A DNA stretch of 64,000 nucleotides, from positions 248,001 to 312,000 of the forward strand of contig JAJDZV010000004.1 of NCBI GenBank assembly GCA_022824465.1. The letters run 5' to 3'. The DNA is from Anaerolineae bacterium (GTDB lineage: Bacteria > Chloroflexota > Anaerolineae > Aggregatilineales > Phototrophicaceae). Shown in pieces: positions 49,909-64,000 of this stretch (the stretch's first letter is position 1; every line of letters begins with the position of its first letter). The translations under genes and the position numbers were made by a program. The notes under the pieces were generated by a model. That model did not search any database, was not told the origin of the DNA, and saw nothing but the letters and a program-made list of their open reading frames with translations.

Positions 49909-52908
49909 CTAAAAGTTCTCCAATTCGCTGAGATCCGCCTTGCCCGCCTGCATGCCGCTGATTCGCTGCAGCAAGGCGATGCGATTGTTGCGCAATGCCA
50001 TATCATCCGTATGCACCAGCACATGGTCGAAAAAGTCGGTCACTGCCGGCGCCATTGTCTCGAAGGCTGACAGAAATTCGTCGACATTCGCCGATGCATT
50101 GAGTTGGCCGGCTGCGTCAAGATAGGCTTGATTCAGGTAGTGTTCCGCCGGTTCAGTGAACAGTTCGCTGCGCACCGGCCGATCCGTCTCATTCTTCGTG
50201 ATTCGTACGCAGCGGGCAAAGCTGTCAAGTACCAATTCCCAATTGTCGCTCTTCACCCACGCCGCCAGTTCAAGGACGGCTCTGGCCGCCCCTGCCGGAT
50301 TCTGCGCTTGCTCCGCCAGCACAGCCCGTATGACATCGCGAGGCGCGCCAGTCTTGTCTATCAGCCAGCCGTCCAGACGAGTCTTGACGAATTCAAATGC
50401 CTGCTGTCTCATTTCCGCGTTCACCGGCACGGGTTGGCTATCCGACACACATTTCATGAGACCGCGCAGATCTACAGGAACATCCGCCTCTGCAAGAATC
50501 CGAATGACGCCAAGCGCCGCCCGCCGCAAGCCAAATGGATCCGATGTCGACTTCGGCGCCAACCCAACCGCAATCAGCCCCACCAGACTATCCAGCTTGT
50601 CCGCCAACGCCAACAACTGCCCCGGTCTCGATGCCGGCAACTCATCGTCCGCGCCCTCCGGCAGCCAGTGCTCGCGAATCGCCGTCGCGACTCTGCTGTC
50701 GATCCCCTCGCGCAAGGCATACTCCCGCCCCATGACGCCCTGCAACGATGTCAGCTCTACCACCATGCTCGTCCCGAGGTCCGCCTTGGCCAGTTTCGCC
50801 GCCTCTAGCGCCACACCGATATCAGCCTCCGAGAAGCCCAACAGCGCGCCCAGATCGCCCACCGTCGCCGCGACCCGATCGTTCTTCTCCCGCATCGAGC
50901 CCAATTCCGCCTGAAAGGTCAACGTCTCCAAGCGCCCCAGGTTACTCGCCAGCGGTCTCTCAATATCTGCGTCATAGAAAAAACGAGCGTCGGAAAACCG
51001 AGCGCGCAGCACTTGCTCGTTGCCATGAATCACCTTGTCGATATGCTCGCTGTCGCCGTTGCGCACTGCCGCGAAGGCGTTCATCAACTTGCCATCCGCG
51101 TCTTCAACCGCGAAGTAGCGCTGATGCTTGCGCATAACCGTGACAAGCGCATCACGCGGCAACGACAGATGCGCCGCGTCAAATCTGCCCAGAAATGCCG
51201 TCGGCGCTTCCACCAGGTTCGCCACCTCGTCCAGAAGCGCAGCATCCTCCGCGACCCTGCCTTCCGCTTCCGCCGCAAGAGCGTCGATCTGCTGCCGAAT
51301 GGCGCGCCGTCGCTCGCAAAAGTCTAGAATGACGCCTTGCTGCTCTAGCGCTTTCTTATAACTCTCCCAGCTATCGACAGCGATCTCGCGCGAGCCCAGC
51401 GGCCGCAGCCCACGAGTCGCCCGCCCGCTCGCCACGCCCGCATATTCGAAGGAAATCGCCGCCTCGCCATGCAATGCCACGATCCAACGAATCGGCCGCG
51501 AAAAAGCCGCCCCGGACGAATTCCACCGCATTGACCGACCAAACCTTAGCCCGGCGATGAAACCCGGCAGCGCTGCCGCCAGCGCTTCCGTTGTCGGCTT
51601 TCCCGCGTTGCGCACAACCGCGGTGACATAAGTCCCGCCGTCCATGTCCTTGACCATCAAGTCCGCGACATCGACGCCCTTGCCGCGCGCGAATCCCAAG
51701 GCTGCTCGCGTCGGCTTCCCATCGCCATCATAGGCTCGGTCCTCCGGCGGTCCCCTGGAGACGAATTCCTCGTCGGCTTGTCGCGGCGCCACTTGACGCG
51801 CCACGAATACAATGCGGCGCGGCGTTGCATACGCGTCGACTCCCGCATGGCTCAAGCGCAATTCCTCGAACAGCGCGGGCGCCGACTCCTTCACCTGCGC
51901 CAAGGCAGCCGCCACATCGTCCGCCGGCATCTCCTCGACGCCAATCTCAACCAAGACATCGGCTGCTTCCGTCGGCGCCGGCGGCATTGCGCAGGCCTCC
52001 TGCGACTCCGCGCCCGGCCACTTCTCCGCCATCTTCATCAGCGGATAACCCAGCCCCTCTCGCTGCGCCACATAAGCCGAGGCGATCGTCCGCGTCATCT
52101 CACGCATTCGCCGGAAATAACTCGCCCGCTCCGTCACGCCGATCGCGCCCCGCGTGTCCAGCACATTGAACAAGTGACTGCACTTCAGCACATAATCGTA
52201 GGCGGAAATCAGCGCATCGCCCTCCAGCGCCCGCGCATACTCCCGCTCGTAGGTGTTGTAAACCAGCTTCAAGGCGCCCACGTCAGCCACATCAAAATAG
52301 TAACGGCAGTACTCGACCTCTTCGTGTAACATCACATCGCCATAACTGACGCCGTCCAGCCACTCAATATCCCAAGCCGAGCCCTTGCCCTGCAGCGCCA
52401 ACACAATCCGCTCGATGCCGTAGGTTATCTCCACGCTGACCGGATCCAGCGCCAGACCGCCCGCCTGCTGAAAATAGGTGAACTGCGTGATCTCCTGCCC
52501 ATCCAGCCAGACCTCCCAGCCCAGCCCCCAGGCGCCCAACGCCGGCGACTCCCAGTTGTCTTCGACGAAGCGAATATCGTGCTCGCGCGCATTAATGCCC
52601 AGCGCTTCCAATGACGCCAAATACAGTTCCTGCGGATTGCCCGGATCCGGCTTCAATATCACCTGATACTGATAATACTTCTGCATCCGATTGGGGTTCT
52701 CGCCGAAGCGGCCGTCATCAGGCCTCACGCTCGGCTCGACATACGCCACCCGCCATGGCTCCGGTCCCAGAACGCGCAATGTCGTCGCCGGGTTGCCGGT
52801 GCCCGCGCCCAATTGCACATTGTAAGGCGCCCATATCAGACAGCCTTGCGCCGCCCAATATTCATGCAATGTCAATATTACCTGCTGAAAGCTCAAAGCT
52901 GAGGGCAT
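49909..52908 (-). CDS. glyQS: Glycyl-tRNA synthetase, alpha and beta subunits fused
   Basis: 999 residues. Residues 1-300 match the alpha subunit ([24 protein letters not shown], and [19 protein letters not shown] holding class II motif residues). From about 318 ([13 protein letters not shown]) the protein matches the beta subunit to its C-terminal anticodon-binding part. In most bacteria glyQ and glyS are separate; a single-chain form is known in some lineages such as Chlamydia. The fusion joint (about 300-315) is a short Ala/Pro linker. The frame is continuous. Confidence 0.95.
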
Positions 52909-59131: not shown

Positions 59132-59238
59132 GGCGACGTTTTTCCCACGCTCTTGCGGTTCTCTTTCCCGCGCGCTTCCATCGACGCTAGAATTAGATGT
59201 ACCATGAAAGCATCCATTTGAGACATTCTTCGCCCTCT

Positions 59239-61212
59239 ATGACCCTGTTCGGCAGACTGGACATCGTCTTTCCAGACGGACAACGAGAGACTCGCCAACT
59301 GCGCGGCGACAGCATCACCGTTGGCAGCGCGCCCTCCTGCGCCATTCGCCTGAGCCGCAAGGTCGCAGTTGACCGCCTTTTTCGGCTGGACTACCGTGAC
59401 GACAGCGTATTTATCACCAATCTCGCTTCGCATGGCGCCCGGGTCGATGGAAAGCAAATCGCGCCCAACAGCCCCGCGCCACTGGACGATACCTCCCGCT
59501 TCACGGCTGGCTCGCTGCAATTCACCTTCTACCGGCATCGCGACAGCCCGACCATCGCGATGTCGGCGCCCGCCGACCAGACGCAGCCCATCGCCACCGG
59601 CATCCGCGCCAGTTTGGACCAGCCGCGAATCACCGTCTTCCCCGCATCCAGCGTGACAATCTCGCTCAACATCGCCAATACCGGCAAATCTGATGCCGAG
59701 TTCCGAGTCGAAGTATCCGGTCCCCCTGGCGATTGGGTCAAGCCGGAACGATTGACCTTCCCGCTGCCCGCCCAAGAAGACACCCAACTACGCTTCCTGA
59801 TCAAACCGGAGCTCCGTGCCGATATCGCGCCGCAGTCCCTGCCCCTAATCATCGACATCACGCGAATTGGCGAATCCCAGCGGCAGCTGCGTCTCACCGG
59901 CCAACTCAATCTCGGCGGCTTCGGCGGCCTCAGTCTCGCCCTCGATCCGCCGATCTGCCTCGATAATGGCGACTTTGCGCTCTTCTTGCTGAACCAAGGC
60001 AACGAGCCGCTCCATCTCACTCTGGAAAGCCACGATCCTGAGTCTCGGCTCAACTTGACGCTGAACCGCGCTTCTGTGACGCTGCCGCCGGGCCGGCGCG
60101 CCCAAATCGGCGGACGCGCCCGTTCGCGCAAACGCCCCCTGGTCGGCAAGGCCAGAGTCCGTCCATTCGTCCTCACCGCCAAAGCCGACAATCCCGCCGG
60201 ATATACCGTGCCCCTGCCAGCCGCCATTCGCGTGACGCCGCTGATCTCAAGCCGAGCCGCCAAGCTGCTTGCCGCTCTCATCATCGCCAGCGCCATCCTG
60301 GCTGCCCTACTCCTCCTTCAGCCGCCCGCGCCCCAAATCGATCGCTTCTCGGTCGCCCAGTCGCAAGTCGCGCAAGGCACACCCGCTCAACTCAGCTGGA
60401 GCGCCGAAAACGCCCATCGCTTTGTCATCGAAGTCGATCGCGTTCCGGTCGCCGCTCTGCCCGCCGACGCTTCCTCTTACGCTCTCGATACCCGCCCCTA
60501 CAGCGATCCCATCGACATCGCCTTGATCGCCCAGCAAGGCGACATCGCGGCGATAGAGTCGTATCGCCTAGATATCTACGAACCAGCCGCCATCGCGCGA
60601 TTTTACGCCGATCGCGCCGCCATGCTGCGCCGCATCGTCGGCACGCTTGTCGTCCGCTGGGAAGTCGACGGCGCCGTCGCCATTGATGTCGCCCGCCCCC
60701 TCGGCTTTGAAACCATCAGCGAATCTCATGACGATTCGCGGGGCGAGCTCGTGCTGCGCGGCGCGCCTCAAGCCCCATTTGAACTCCGGCTCAGCGCTAC
60801 AGACGAAATGGGCAACACCACCATCGCCACGATTCAAATCGCCATTCGCGATCCCGAATGCTCGCCGCGCCGCGACGCCAGCCTGTACGCCGGACCCGAC
60901 GCGCGCTACCAGCCCGTGAAGGTCGCGATAGCCAATGTTCCCGTCTTGATCCGCGGCACAAACGCCGCGCGAAACTGGCTGCAAGTCGAACTCGCCAACG
61001 GCATGGTCGGTTGGGCCGACGCCAGCTACTTCCACTGCCAAGGCTTTACGCCAGCCGCACTGGAAGTCGTCAGCGACATTCCGCCGCCGCCAACCGATAC
61101 GCCTACGCCCACGCCCGCCGCTACCAAATCCGACTCGCCAAGGCCATCCGCGACGCCCGGTTCAACCCCACCCCCGATTGCCTCTCCCTTCCCGACCGCG
61201 CTCGCGCCTTAG
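59239..61212 (+). CDS. Single-pass membrane protein with FHA-like and SH3b-like domains
   Basis: 657 residues. Residues 1-100 resemble an FHA domain (ITVGSAPSCAIRLS, then VFITNLASHGARVDGKQI) but the phosphopeptide-binding GR and SxxH residues are missing. About 125-340 contains beta-sandwich modules, one membrane helix follows (about 340-363), and then beta domains and an SH3b-like module (about 541-600, CSPRRDASLYAGPDARYQPV to VGWADASYF). The C-terminus is Pro/Thr-rich. Cytoplasmic FHA and outer SH3b is the inferred topology. ATG 59239 is preferred to 59197, since TAGAAT at 59188-59193 could be its -10 box. Function unknown. Its stop overlaps the rhodanese stop by 4 bases. Confidence 0.75.
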   Translation: MTLFGRLDIVFPDGQRETRQLRGDSITVGSAPSCAIRLSRKVAVDRLFRLDYRDDSVFITNLASHGARVDGKQIAPNSPAPLDDTSRFTAGSLQFTFYRHRDSPTIAMSAPADQTQPIATGIRASLDQPRITVFPASSVTISLNIANTGKSDAEFRVEVSGPPGDWVKPERLTFPLPAQEDTQLRFLIKPELRADIAPQSLPLIIDITRIGESQRQLRLTGQLNLGGFGGLSLALDPPICLDNGDFALFLLNQGNEPLHLTLESHDPESRLNLTLNRASVTLPPGRRAQIGGRARSRKRPLVGKARVRPFVLTAKADNPAGYTVPLPAAIRVTPLISSRAAKLLAALIIASAILAALLLLQPPAPQIDRFSVAQSQVAQGTPAQLSWSAENAHRFVIEVDRVPVAALPADASSYALDTRPYSDPIDIALIAQQGDIAAIESYRLDIYEPAAIARFYADRAAMLRRIVGTLVVRWEVDGAVAIDVARPLGFETISESHDDSRGELVLRGAPQAPFELRLSATDEMGNTTIATIQIAIRDPECSPRRDASLYAGPDARYQPVKVAIANVPVLIRGTNAARNWLQVELANGMVGWADASYFHCQGFTPAALEVVSDIPPPPTDTPTPTPAATKSDSPRPSATPGSTPPPIASPFPTALAP

Positions 61213-62656: not shown

Positions 62657-62685
62657 TTGTCAGCCGCAATTCACGCGCGTATAAT
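62657..62685 (+). promoter_or_regulatory. Strong promoter of the chelatase gene
   Basis: TTGTCA (62657-62662), exactly 17 bases, TATAAT (62680-62685). The predicted start near 62692 excludes the in-frame ATG at 62657 and supports the ATG at 62729. Confidence 0.65.
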
Positions 62686-62728: not shown

Positions 62729-63850
62729 ATGAGCAACCGACCGCCCGTCTACCCCTTCACCGCCATCGTCAGCCAGGACATGATGAAGCTCGCGCTGATC
62801 CTCAACGCCATCGATATGCGCATCGGCGGCGTGCTCATTCGCGGCGAACGCGGCACCGGCAAGTCGACCGCCGCCCGCGCCCTCGCCGCCCTCTTGCCCG
62901 AAATCAACGTCATCGCCGATTCGCCCTTCAACGACGACCCCAACCGGCCCGAATCCTGGTCGGATTTCGCCCGCGACAAATACCATGACTGCCCCGAAAT
63001 CCCCACATCGCGCCGGCGCATCAGCTTTGTCGACCTGCCCGTCAGCGCCACCGAAGACCGCGTGGTCGGCACCCTCGATATCGAAAAAGCCATCCAATTC
63101 GGCGAACGCCACTTCGATACCGGCGTCCTCGCCAACGCCAACCGCGGCATCCTCTACGTCGATGAGATTAACCTGCTTGATGACCACATCGTCGATCTTC
63201 TCCTCGATAGCGCCGCCATGGGGGTCAACATCGTCGAACGCGAAGGCATCAGCTTTAGCCACCCCGCCCGCTTCATCCTGGTCGGCACCATGAACCCCGA
63301 AGAAGGCGACCTGCGCCCGCAATTGCTCGACCGCTTCGCCCTATCCGTCGACGTCACCGGCATCAAAGACGCTGCCGACCGCATCGAAATCCTCGAGCGT
63401 CACATCGCCTACGAAAACGATCCGCTCGACTTCAAAACCGAATGGGACCCAGTCGACCAACGGCTCTCGCAGCGCATCGCCGCCGCGCGCGAAATCATCG
63501 ACCAGGTTACCCACACCACGCACGACCTTCGCGTCATCGCCAGCATCACCAGCGACCTGCGCATCGACGGCCACCGCGCCGACCTCGTCATCCTCAAAGC
63601 CGCCCGCGCCCACGCCGCCTTCGAAGGCAGAACCGCCATCAACGACCGTGATATCACCACCGCCATTCGTCTGACCATCCCCCATCGCCTCAAACGCGGA
63701 CCCTTCAGCGACGCCCAAGCCGACCTCAACGCCGTCGAAGCCGCCGTGGACGAGAAACGCCAGGAAATCGGCGAAGGCGAAGAAGAAGGCGAATTCAGCG
63801 AAAACAGCGACGAACAAGCCGCGCAAACTAAAAAAAAAGTGAGTCTTTAA
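62729..63850 (+). CDS. chlI: Mg/Co-chelatase AAA+ subunit (I-type), zero-frame product
   Basis: 373 residues. Walker A RGERGTGKSTAARALA, Walker B GILYVDEINLLDDHIVDLLLD, the insertion VVGTLDIEKAIQFGERHF, sensor GTMNPEEGDLRPQLLDRFA and the C-terminal helical bundle of ChlI/BchI are complete. It powers insertion of Mg2+ into protoporphyrin or Co2+ into a corrin precursor. After about residue 350 the sequence becomes acidic (GEGEEEGEFSENSDEQ), the start of a linker expected in D-type subunits, then reads KKKVSL and stops. The stop is 12 bases beyond nine consecutive A; the -1 frame continues the acidic linker. So this is probably the first product of a frameshifted chlI-D gene rather than a separate chlI. 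Confidence 0.9.
   Translation: MSNRPPVYPFTAIVSQDMMKLALILNAIDMRIGGVLIRGERGTGKSTAARALAALLPEINVIADSPFNDDPNRPESWSDFARDKYHDCPEIPTSRRRISFVDLPVSATEDRVVGTLDIEKAIQFGERHFDTGVLANANRGILYVDEINLLDDHIVDLLLDSAAMGVNIVEREGISFSHPARFILVGTMNPEEGDLRPQLLDRFALSVDVTGIKDAADRIEILERHIAYENDPLDFKTEWDPVDQRLSQRIAAAREIIDQVTHTTHDLRVIASITSDLRIDGHRADLVILKAARAHAAFEGRTAINDRDITTAIRLTIPHRLKRGPFSDAQADLNAVEAAVDEKRQEIGEGEEEGEFSENSDEQAAQTKKKVSL
63830..63838 (+). promoter_or_regulatory. Slippery A9 run, candidate -1 ribosomal frameshift site
   Basis: Zero frame reads ACT AAA AAA AAA GTG. The heptamer A AAA AAA at 63832-63838 satisfies the X XXY YYZ rule. The -1 frame has a TAA at 63829-63831 and is open after it, so any shift must happen within the run. 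The zero-frame stop is TAA 63848-63850. Confidence 0.55.
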
Positions 63851-64000
63851 GTGGCGAAGGCGAACCCCAAGAGCAAGAACTCGGCCAAACCGAAGCCGCG
63901 CCCCAAGACGTCTTTCCGACCGCCGACGCCCGCTGGTGGGAAGGCGGCCAGCAGATCGAGTCCAAAGCCGAATTCGAAACGCGCAAACTCAACACCCAGC
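63838..64000 (+). CDS. -1-frame continuation of the chelatase gene (D-type linker, partial)
   Basis: The frame beginning AGT at 63838 is open to the window edge (54 codons). The product starts SESLSGEGEPQEQELGQTEA and reaches an aromatic DARWWEGG segment. Its acidic, Gln-rich character continues the tail of the AAA+ domain, as in ChlD/BchD-type subunits where such a linker joins the AAA+ half to a C-terminal von Willebrand A domain. The vWA part would lie beyond the window. It is either reached by frameshift or joined to the previous frame by a base-count error in the A run. Confidence 0.6.

Follow-up and report, generated by a model that had tools for sequence, protein, structure and literature searches.

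A conserved run of nine adenines joins ChlI-like ATPase and vWA reading frames in Anaerolineae and may yield two products by slippage

What is made from a gene whose ATPase frame stops shortly after a run of nine adenines, while a second domain lies open one frame back? The question is raised by a gene at the end of the window analysed here, a 64,000-nt stretch of GCA_022824465.1 (contig JAJDZV010000004.1, 248,001-312,000, forward strand; analysis code G000:C5:248001-312000). The gene is cut by the window's end, and the same contig was read onward as locus L002 (L002 position + 60000 = window position). The zero frame runs from an ATG at 62729 to a TAA stop and encodes a 373 aa ChlI-like AAA+ ATPase. 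The -1 frame, shut by a TAA right before the nine-A run (A9), is open past it, and its 322 codons reach a stop at 64804-64806 on the same contig. Stops are near in both non-productive frames of this gene, the TGA and the zero-frame TAA listed with the other features in Table 1. The A9 is the sole A or T run of at least seven within the 64,000 bases; the 347,364 bases surrounding 20 orthologous loci contain 25 such runs of length 7, 7 of length 8 and 2 of length 9. The promoter-like site upstream of the gene is the only one in 3 kb, compared with a shuffle mean of 0.8, and is not significant alone. Elsewhere in the window, a 999 aa ORF on the minus strand (49909-52908) looks by eye like a glycyl-tRNA synthetase with fused alpha and beta parts.

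Table 1. Features of the gene, in window positions
Feature	Position	Strand	Basis
Promoter-like TTGTCA - 17 nt - TATAAT	62657..62685	+	Consensus match only, 11/12 positions; upstream of gene
Zero-frame ORF, predicted short product I, ChlI-like AAA+ ATPase, 373 aa	62729..63850	+	ORF and structure/profile matches
GERGTGKST, which we take to be Walker A	62843..62869	+	Sequence
ILYVDEIN, presumably Walker B	63149..63172	+	Sequence
AAA lid domain	63536..63715	+	PF17863, residues 270-329
TAA shutting the -1 frame right before A9	63829..63831	+	Sequence
A9 slippery run, codon phase 0 (AAA AAA AAA), containing in-frame A AAA AAA	63830..63838	+	Sequence
-1 frame, start of D part (acidic linker and vWA)	63838..64000 in window, onward to stop 64804-64806	+	ORF and domain matches
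TGA, third (+1) frame, immediately 3' of A9	63840..63842	+	Sequence GTGAGTCTTTAA
TAA, zero-frame stop of short product	63848..63850	+	Sequence

The ATPase (I) part matched the ChlI structure 8osf (E = 3.2e-106). The -1 frame (D part) matched Pfam VWA_2 (E = 8.3e-11) and the BchD vWA structure 2x31 (E = 1.7e-18), and carries a DASWS (MIDAS-type) motif. TIGR02030 scored 404 bits for the I part against a cut-off of 467, and TIGR02442 scored 482 (I) and 250 (D) against a cut-off of 779, the halves being scored apart. The ATPase and vWA domains of Mg-chelatase BchI/BchD and of the cobaltochelatase-type TIGR02442 are homologous to those of this gene, which differs from both in that no large subunit or corrin marker was detected in its genome. 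A sequence-only reading of the window had described the ChlI-like ATPase, the nine A's with an in-frame heptamer, the TAA stop, and a -1 frame closed before the run and open after it, and had proposed one gene with an I-type ATPase and a D-type part in the -1 frame. All of these elements were seen again, and reading past position 64000 revealed the expected vWA domain. The same reading had likened the gene to the published frameshifted chlD genes (fs-chlD), and the likeness holds: a ChlI-like N-terminal part, a D part in an overlapping -1 frame and an A-rich slippery site are shared, and the slippery run is conserved among relatives.

Conservation of the run was examined in loci from 61 family genomes (D match in 60), 251 phylum genomes (D at 1e-30 in 111) and 80 named contigs, mostly Anaerolineae/Chloroflexi MAGs. 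A further 60 class loci were added later as a fresh test; these came from the best-scoring unexamined class genomes of the listing, and so were not random (G455 was passed over). Before counting, 56 duplicate junctions were excluded, as were L035, L066 and L067 (CobN-linked paralogues with no run) and L003 and L036 (no D match). Of the 154 distinct orthologous junctions that made up the first set, 153 had a run of seven to ten A's, as did 58 of 60 fresh loci. The fresh misses were L271, with six A's and an unread base, and L287, with no run. The first-set miss, L213 (G188, family f6), has related I and D frames in a different frame relation and no A-run; it may have given up the slippery site for two separate genes. 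Over the 211 run-bearing loci, 157 runs were A9, 19 A10, 9 A8 and 26 A7. Bellilinea caldifistulae (L138) has an A8 run. Runs of exactly nine span all three codon phases (96, 29 and 32 in phases 0, 1 and 2), and nine was still the commonest length (68 of 104 cluster-states) when loci were collapsed at 85% D identity into 99 clusters. The two frames were split in 175 loci and in frame in 36, with the -1 relation found in all 41 fresh split loci. On a quick tree with long control branches, made from the first set only (120 orthologue rows), the orthologues formed a clade (SH-aLRT 97) that left out all 20 fetched in-frame D paralogues (CobN-linked and others), none of which has a run of six or more A's at that place. 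The tree required at least 11 changes of codon phase, at least 5 between split and in-frame states and at least 15 of run length; these counts omit L214 and L215, duplicates of L174 and L167 that both carry the run.

The in-frame orthologues retain the run as well. In the first set, 18 of 19 keep A8-A10 and one has A7, and the -1 frame stops 2-3 nt past the run in 14 of 19. Of the 37 in-frame loci (L271 included), 29 have a -1 stop and 27 a +1 stop no more than 21 nt away. The corresponding control fractions (-1, +1) were 0.23 and 0.12 for the same linkers off the run, 0.18 and 0.08 for paralogue linkers, and 0.25 and 0.27 for the ATPase domain. At a limit of 26 nt, chosen after the data were seen, the count is 37 of 37. 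Chloroflexi OLB15 (L058/L133), with ten A's and an open frame, has as its tree sister L059, with A9 and split frames. Since the in-frame orthologues keep both the run and a nearby -1 stop, the same two products are predicted for them with the frames inverted: the in-frame genes would make the short product by slippage, a mirror of the window's gene.

Codon phase, run length and downstream folding all bear on the mechanism. An in-frame heptamer A AAA AA(A/G/C) was found in 211 of 212 loci, and lies at 63832-63838 in the window's gene; it is automatic for nine or more A's and telling for A7 and A8. All 26 A7 runs lie in phase 2, with in-frame A AAA AAA, and 8 of 9 A8 runs lie in phase 1 with an in-frame heptamer, the ninth (L201) reading A AAA AAG. 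With A7 and A8 runs thus in heptamer phase, pure run-length slippage was rejected as an account of every member. In phase 2, where seven A's are enough for the ribosome, there were 26 A7, no A8, 32 A9 and 2 A10 runs (12, 0, 18 and 2 when collapsed at 85% identity).

Downstream of A7 runs, the nine first-set sites, five of them from one family, folded with a mean z of -2.34 at +6 nt; the fresh loci (n = 16) gave means of -2.20, -2.34 and -1.87 at 0, +3 and +6 nt. Farther from the run, z lay between -0.6 and +0.8. For first-set runs of eight or more, z was -0.68 in split loci (n = 99; -0.98 at +600 nt) and +0.38 in in-frame loci (n = 18). Fresh A9-A10 sites gave -0.37 to -0.96 (n = 35; -0.57 at +3 nt) and fresh A8 sites -1.18 at 0 nt (n = 6). 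The fresh test left out a single sequence that contains an unread base and so covered 57 of 58 run-bearing loci (16 of 17 A7); A7 differed from A9-A10 at +6 nt with p = 0.013 (one-sided Mann-Whitney, relatedness not corrected). The five fresh in-frame A7 sites were mostly weakly folded, two at -2.4 and -1.8 and three between -0.1 and +1.7. A third-frame stop within 21 nt occurred at 29 of 35 A9-A10, 6 of 6 A8 and 8 of 17 A7 fresh sites, and at 67 of 93 A8+ and 2 of 8 A7 sites among first-set split loci. In the window's gene itself, the earlier observation of no obvious stimulatory hairpin was borne out (z = -0.12 over 86 nt from 63845; -0.63 over 75 nt past the run, row L001), and no Shine-Dalgarno-like word was found in the 20 nt upstream of the run. 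The genome has a tRNA-Lys(CUU), with no tRNA-Lys(UUU) among the ARAGORN-named matches; 2 of 41 Rfam matches (partial, at contig ends) were unnamed and the genome is incomplete.

A nine-A run whose length is conserved in homologues has been taken as a mark of purposeful transcriptional slippage (PMC1088944, available part), and in Thermus thermophilus dnaX stops are near in both other frames (PMC5009743, in the portion available). The two-regime pattern, together with these arguments, leads us to favour RNA polymerase slippage at A9 sites. We propose that the relatives divide: A7 sites with hairpins would be of the ribosomal type, and A9-A10 sites, mostly without hairpins, would rely on slippage by RNA polymerase. 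Several points count against the polymerase reading: the in-frame heptamer is nearly universal, the A8 loci are at odds with a nine-A rule, a second heptamer is formed where a phase-2 A9 is followed by G or C, most in-frame A7 sites fold weakly, strong folds follow a few of the fresh A9 runs (L237, z = -4.6; L238, -3.8; L248, -3.3; L258, -3.3), and the gene has been read as ribosomal in print.

The window's gene combines a ChlI-type ATPase frame with a vWA frame one step back at A9. On balance, we consider it somewhat more likely than not that slippage at the run lets it encode two proteins, a short one with the ATPase alone (I, 373 aa) and a long one of about 692 aa in which the ATPase is joined to the vWA part (ID). 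RNA polymerase would probably add one extra A. As judged from the sequence, transcripts with nine A's would stop at TAA 63848, those with ten would read on into the vWA part, and those with eight or eleven would meet TGA 63840. By homology with ChlI/ChlD, I and ID may assemble into a mixed AAA+ ring in which some members bear vWA arms. The complex would likely serve no tetrapyrrole chelatase in this lineage; the remodelling of some other protein, or the insertion of metal into it, is more likely. Relatives with seven A's and then a hairpin would make the same two products by ordinary -1 ribosomal frameshifting.

Which partner such a complex would have was approached through the large subunit. 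CobN/BchH (PF02514) had no match in the window's genome (G000, 87% complete) or in nine others from the genus, which are 93-96% complete, and was likewise missing from 59 of the 61 family genomes. Across 199 class genomes, the D part was found in 172 (E 1e-50) and the large subunit in 17 (E 1e-20), all among those 172; 182 had no large-subunit match, and 155 had the D part with no large subunit detected. For the corrin enzyme CbiC, 42 genomes were tested overall and 7 had it; none of the 15 tested from the family did, nor did the window's genome. The sequence-only reading had supposed that the gene acts probably with CobN, and this part of it was not supported; the earlier interpretation is partly supported overall. 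Two family genomes do have CobN, with an extra in-frame I and D beside it (G026:C246, locus L067; G046:C16, locus L066), and CbiC was found in neither.

That reading had also raised the matter of a second chlI/bchI, and only a single I-like match was found at 1e-15 in G000, as in G017. In the 10 family genomes of other genera tested, all 10 carry a further, unlinked ChlI-like gene of 37-42% identity. Family and genus codes such as f1, f23 and f33 are labels of this analysis; we guess that f23 corresponds to Chloroflexales and f33 to Herpetosiphon-like organisms. In 5 of 6 f33 genomes, the only D gene accompanying CobN is a split one with an A7 run, so a chelatase role does exist in other parts of the phylum; this pairing of CobN with a split D gene alone has been published for such organisms. 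Among 37 loci with flanks, no family beyond I and D recurred in more than 12, and that one was mixed in position and strand. No neighbour is therefore conserved enough for a client to be named from gene context. On the plus strand at 59197-61212, the window holds a 671 aa ORF that by eye seems to begin with an FHA-like region, to contain a membrane segment and to carry an SH3-like part close to its end; related ORFs lie near 5 others of the 37 loci.

Alternative explanations differ widely in how well they accommodate these results. A homopolymer sequencing or assembly error, or a pseudogene, might be suspected in a MAG assembly, particularly with ten A's and an open frame in OLB15. The sequence-only reading had called for the A count to be compared in relatives, and the run recurs in independent assemblies: 175 split loci have the same arrangement, and genus-level relatives retain 88-96% identity in I and 91-99% in D either side of the run. 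Because the run is kept at the same place at nearly all junctions of both sets, the A9 junction is not an assembly error, and conservation already contradicts this explanation, whose probability we regard as negligible. It is very unlikely that no fused protein is made and that the vWA part is translated on its own, through either re-initiation or an internal start in the -1 frame. The zero-frame stop inside the overlap and the later start of the -1 frame (first ATG 64009, 265 aa) would suit separate translation, but 36 run-bearing orthologues encode I and D as one protein, and the conserved element is the run itself. More serious is the proposal that the same two products arise mainly by -1 ribosomal frameshifting on the in-frame A AAA AAA, with a longer run only raising efficiency, or by both mechanisms together. 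The near-universal heptamer and the hairpins at A7 sites speak for it, as do, in the accessible parts of the sources, E. coli cassettes shifting at 10, 40 and 63% with 7, 9 and 11 A's (PMC3711429) and purifying selection on A_AAA_AAR in other taxa (PMC5009743). It accounts poorly for the lack of any A8 run among the 60 phase-2 loci, in which A7 and A9 both occur, for the hairpin or Shine-Dalgarno-like word that is mostly absent at A9 sites and wholly so in the window's gene, and for the nearby stops in both other frames at A9-A10 sites. We regard it as quite possible, though less likely than not.

Polymerase slippage at A9 remains our preferred reading of the mechanism, and a separate alternative concerns function. 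That the products are Co- or Mg-chelatase subunits working with a large subunit would follow the homology to ChlI and BchD and the published role of frameshifted chlD elsewhere; the 87% completeness of the genome and the f33 genomes could be cited in its favour. Against it stand the missing PF02514 in this genome, the more complete genus genomes and most of the family, the missing CbiC in 15 of 15 family genomes, and the dedicated in-frame I and D beside CobN in the two family genomes that have it. A chelatase role for this gene appears extremely improbable. With no large subunit or corrin enzyme found, the complex likely serves no tetrapyrrole chelatase here, and the motor is probably used on something else in this lineage.

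Frameshifted chlD genes, and orphan cases in Chloroflexi, are already published. In the available part of PMC3711429 (Antonov 2013), -1 frameshifted magnesium chelatase genes are given for six genera including Herpetosiphon, a nine-A chlD cassette shifts at 40% in E. coli, the cassette results are read as frameshifting, and the Chloroflexus aggregans gene is named as a fusion. Kuznetsov 2022 (PMC9227772) reported that Brevefilum fermentans (Chloroflexi) and Spirochaeta thermophila have a frameshifted chlD but neither a large subunit nor a pathway, described frameshifted chlD with a separate chlI in some Anaerolineaceae, and called the function of ChlI and ChlD without the large subunit unexplored. 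The A_AAA_AAR of this gene is treated as a ribosomal site in PMC5009743, and the gene likewise in PMC8211752, as far as the accessible text of each goes. Compared with the published fs-chlD genes, the run here prefers exactly nine in all codon phases, mostly lacks a hairpin and persists in in-frame genes; the gene itself is near-universal across the class, where a large subunit rarely accompanies it. Among titles and abstract openings, no further work addressing transcriptional slippage in chlD or a run in in-frame genes was found; Antonov 2020 may contain parts. As far as searched, what is new is that the gene has orphan status throughout the class, that in-frame genes keep the run, and that A7-hairpin sites divide from A9-A10 sites, though parts may be in print.

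The closest likeness is to dnaX, in which one AAA+ gene gives a short and a long subunit, as predicted here, by transcriptional slippage at nine A's in T. thermophilus and by a ribosomal -1 shift in E. coli. The T. thermophilus gene shares the nine-A run and the nearby stops in both other frames (PMC1088944 and PMC5009743, parts available). The divide between polymerase and ribosome is known for dnaX, and a similar one is proposed among the relatives of this gene. Unlike dnaX, this gene has an unrelated role, its relatives are both split and in frame, and its slippage is a prediction from sequence. More broadly, and tentatively, at somewhat under even chances, nearly the whole class may keep a chelatase-type AAA+/vWA motor as an orphan, with no remaining tie to chlorophyll or B12. 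Slippage of RNA polymerase at nine A's would let a single gene supply both of its subunits; the run, rather than the frame, would be what is conserved, and some lineages would have swapped to a ribosomal A7-hairpin signal. Standard annotation would label the split genes as broken or split, would take the in-frame ones for plain fusions, and would so miss the second product predicted for the latter. If the proposal is true, this would be another dnaX-like gene, with relatives using either polymerase slippage or ribosomal frameshifting and many natural replicates, and the role of ChlI and ChlD in the many class genomes where no large subunit was detected would become testable.
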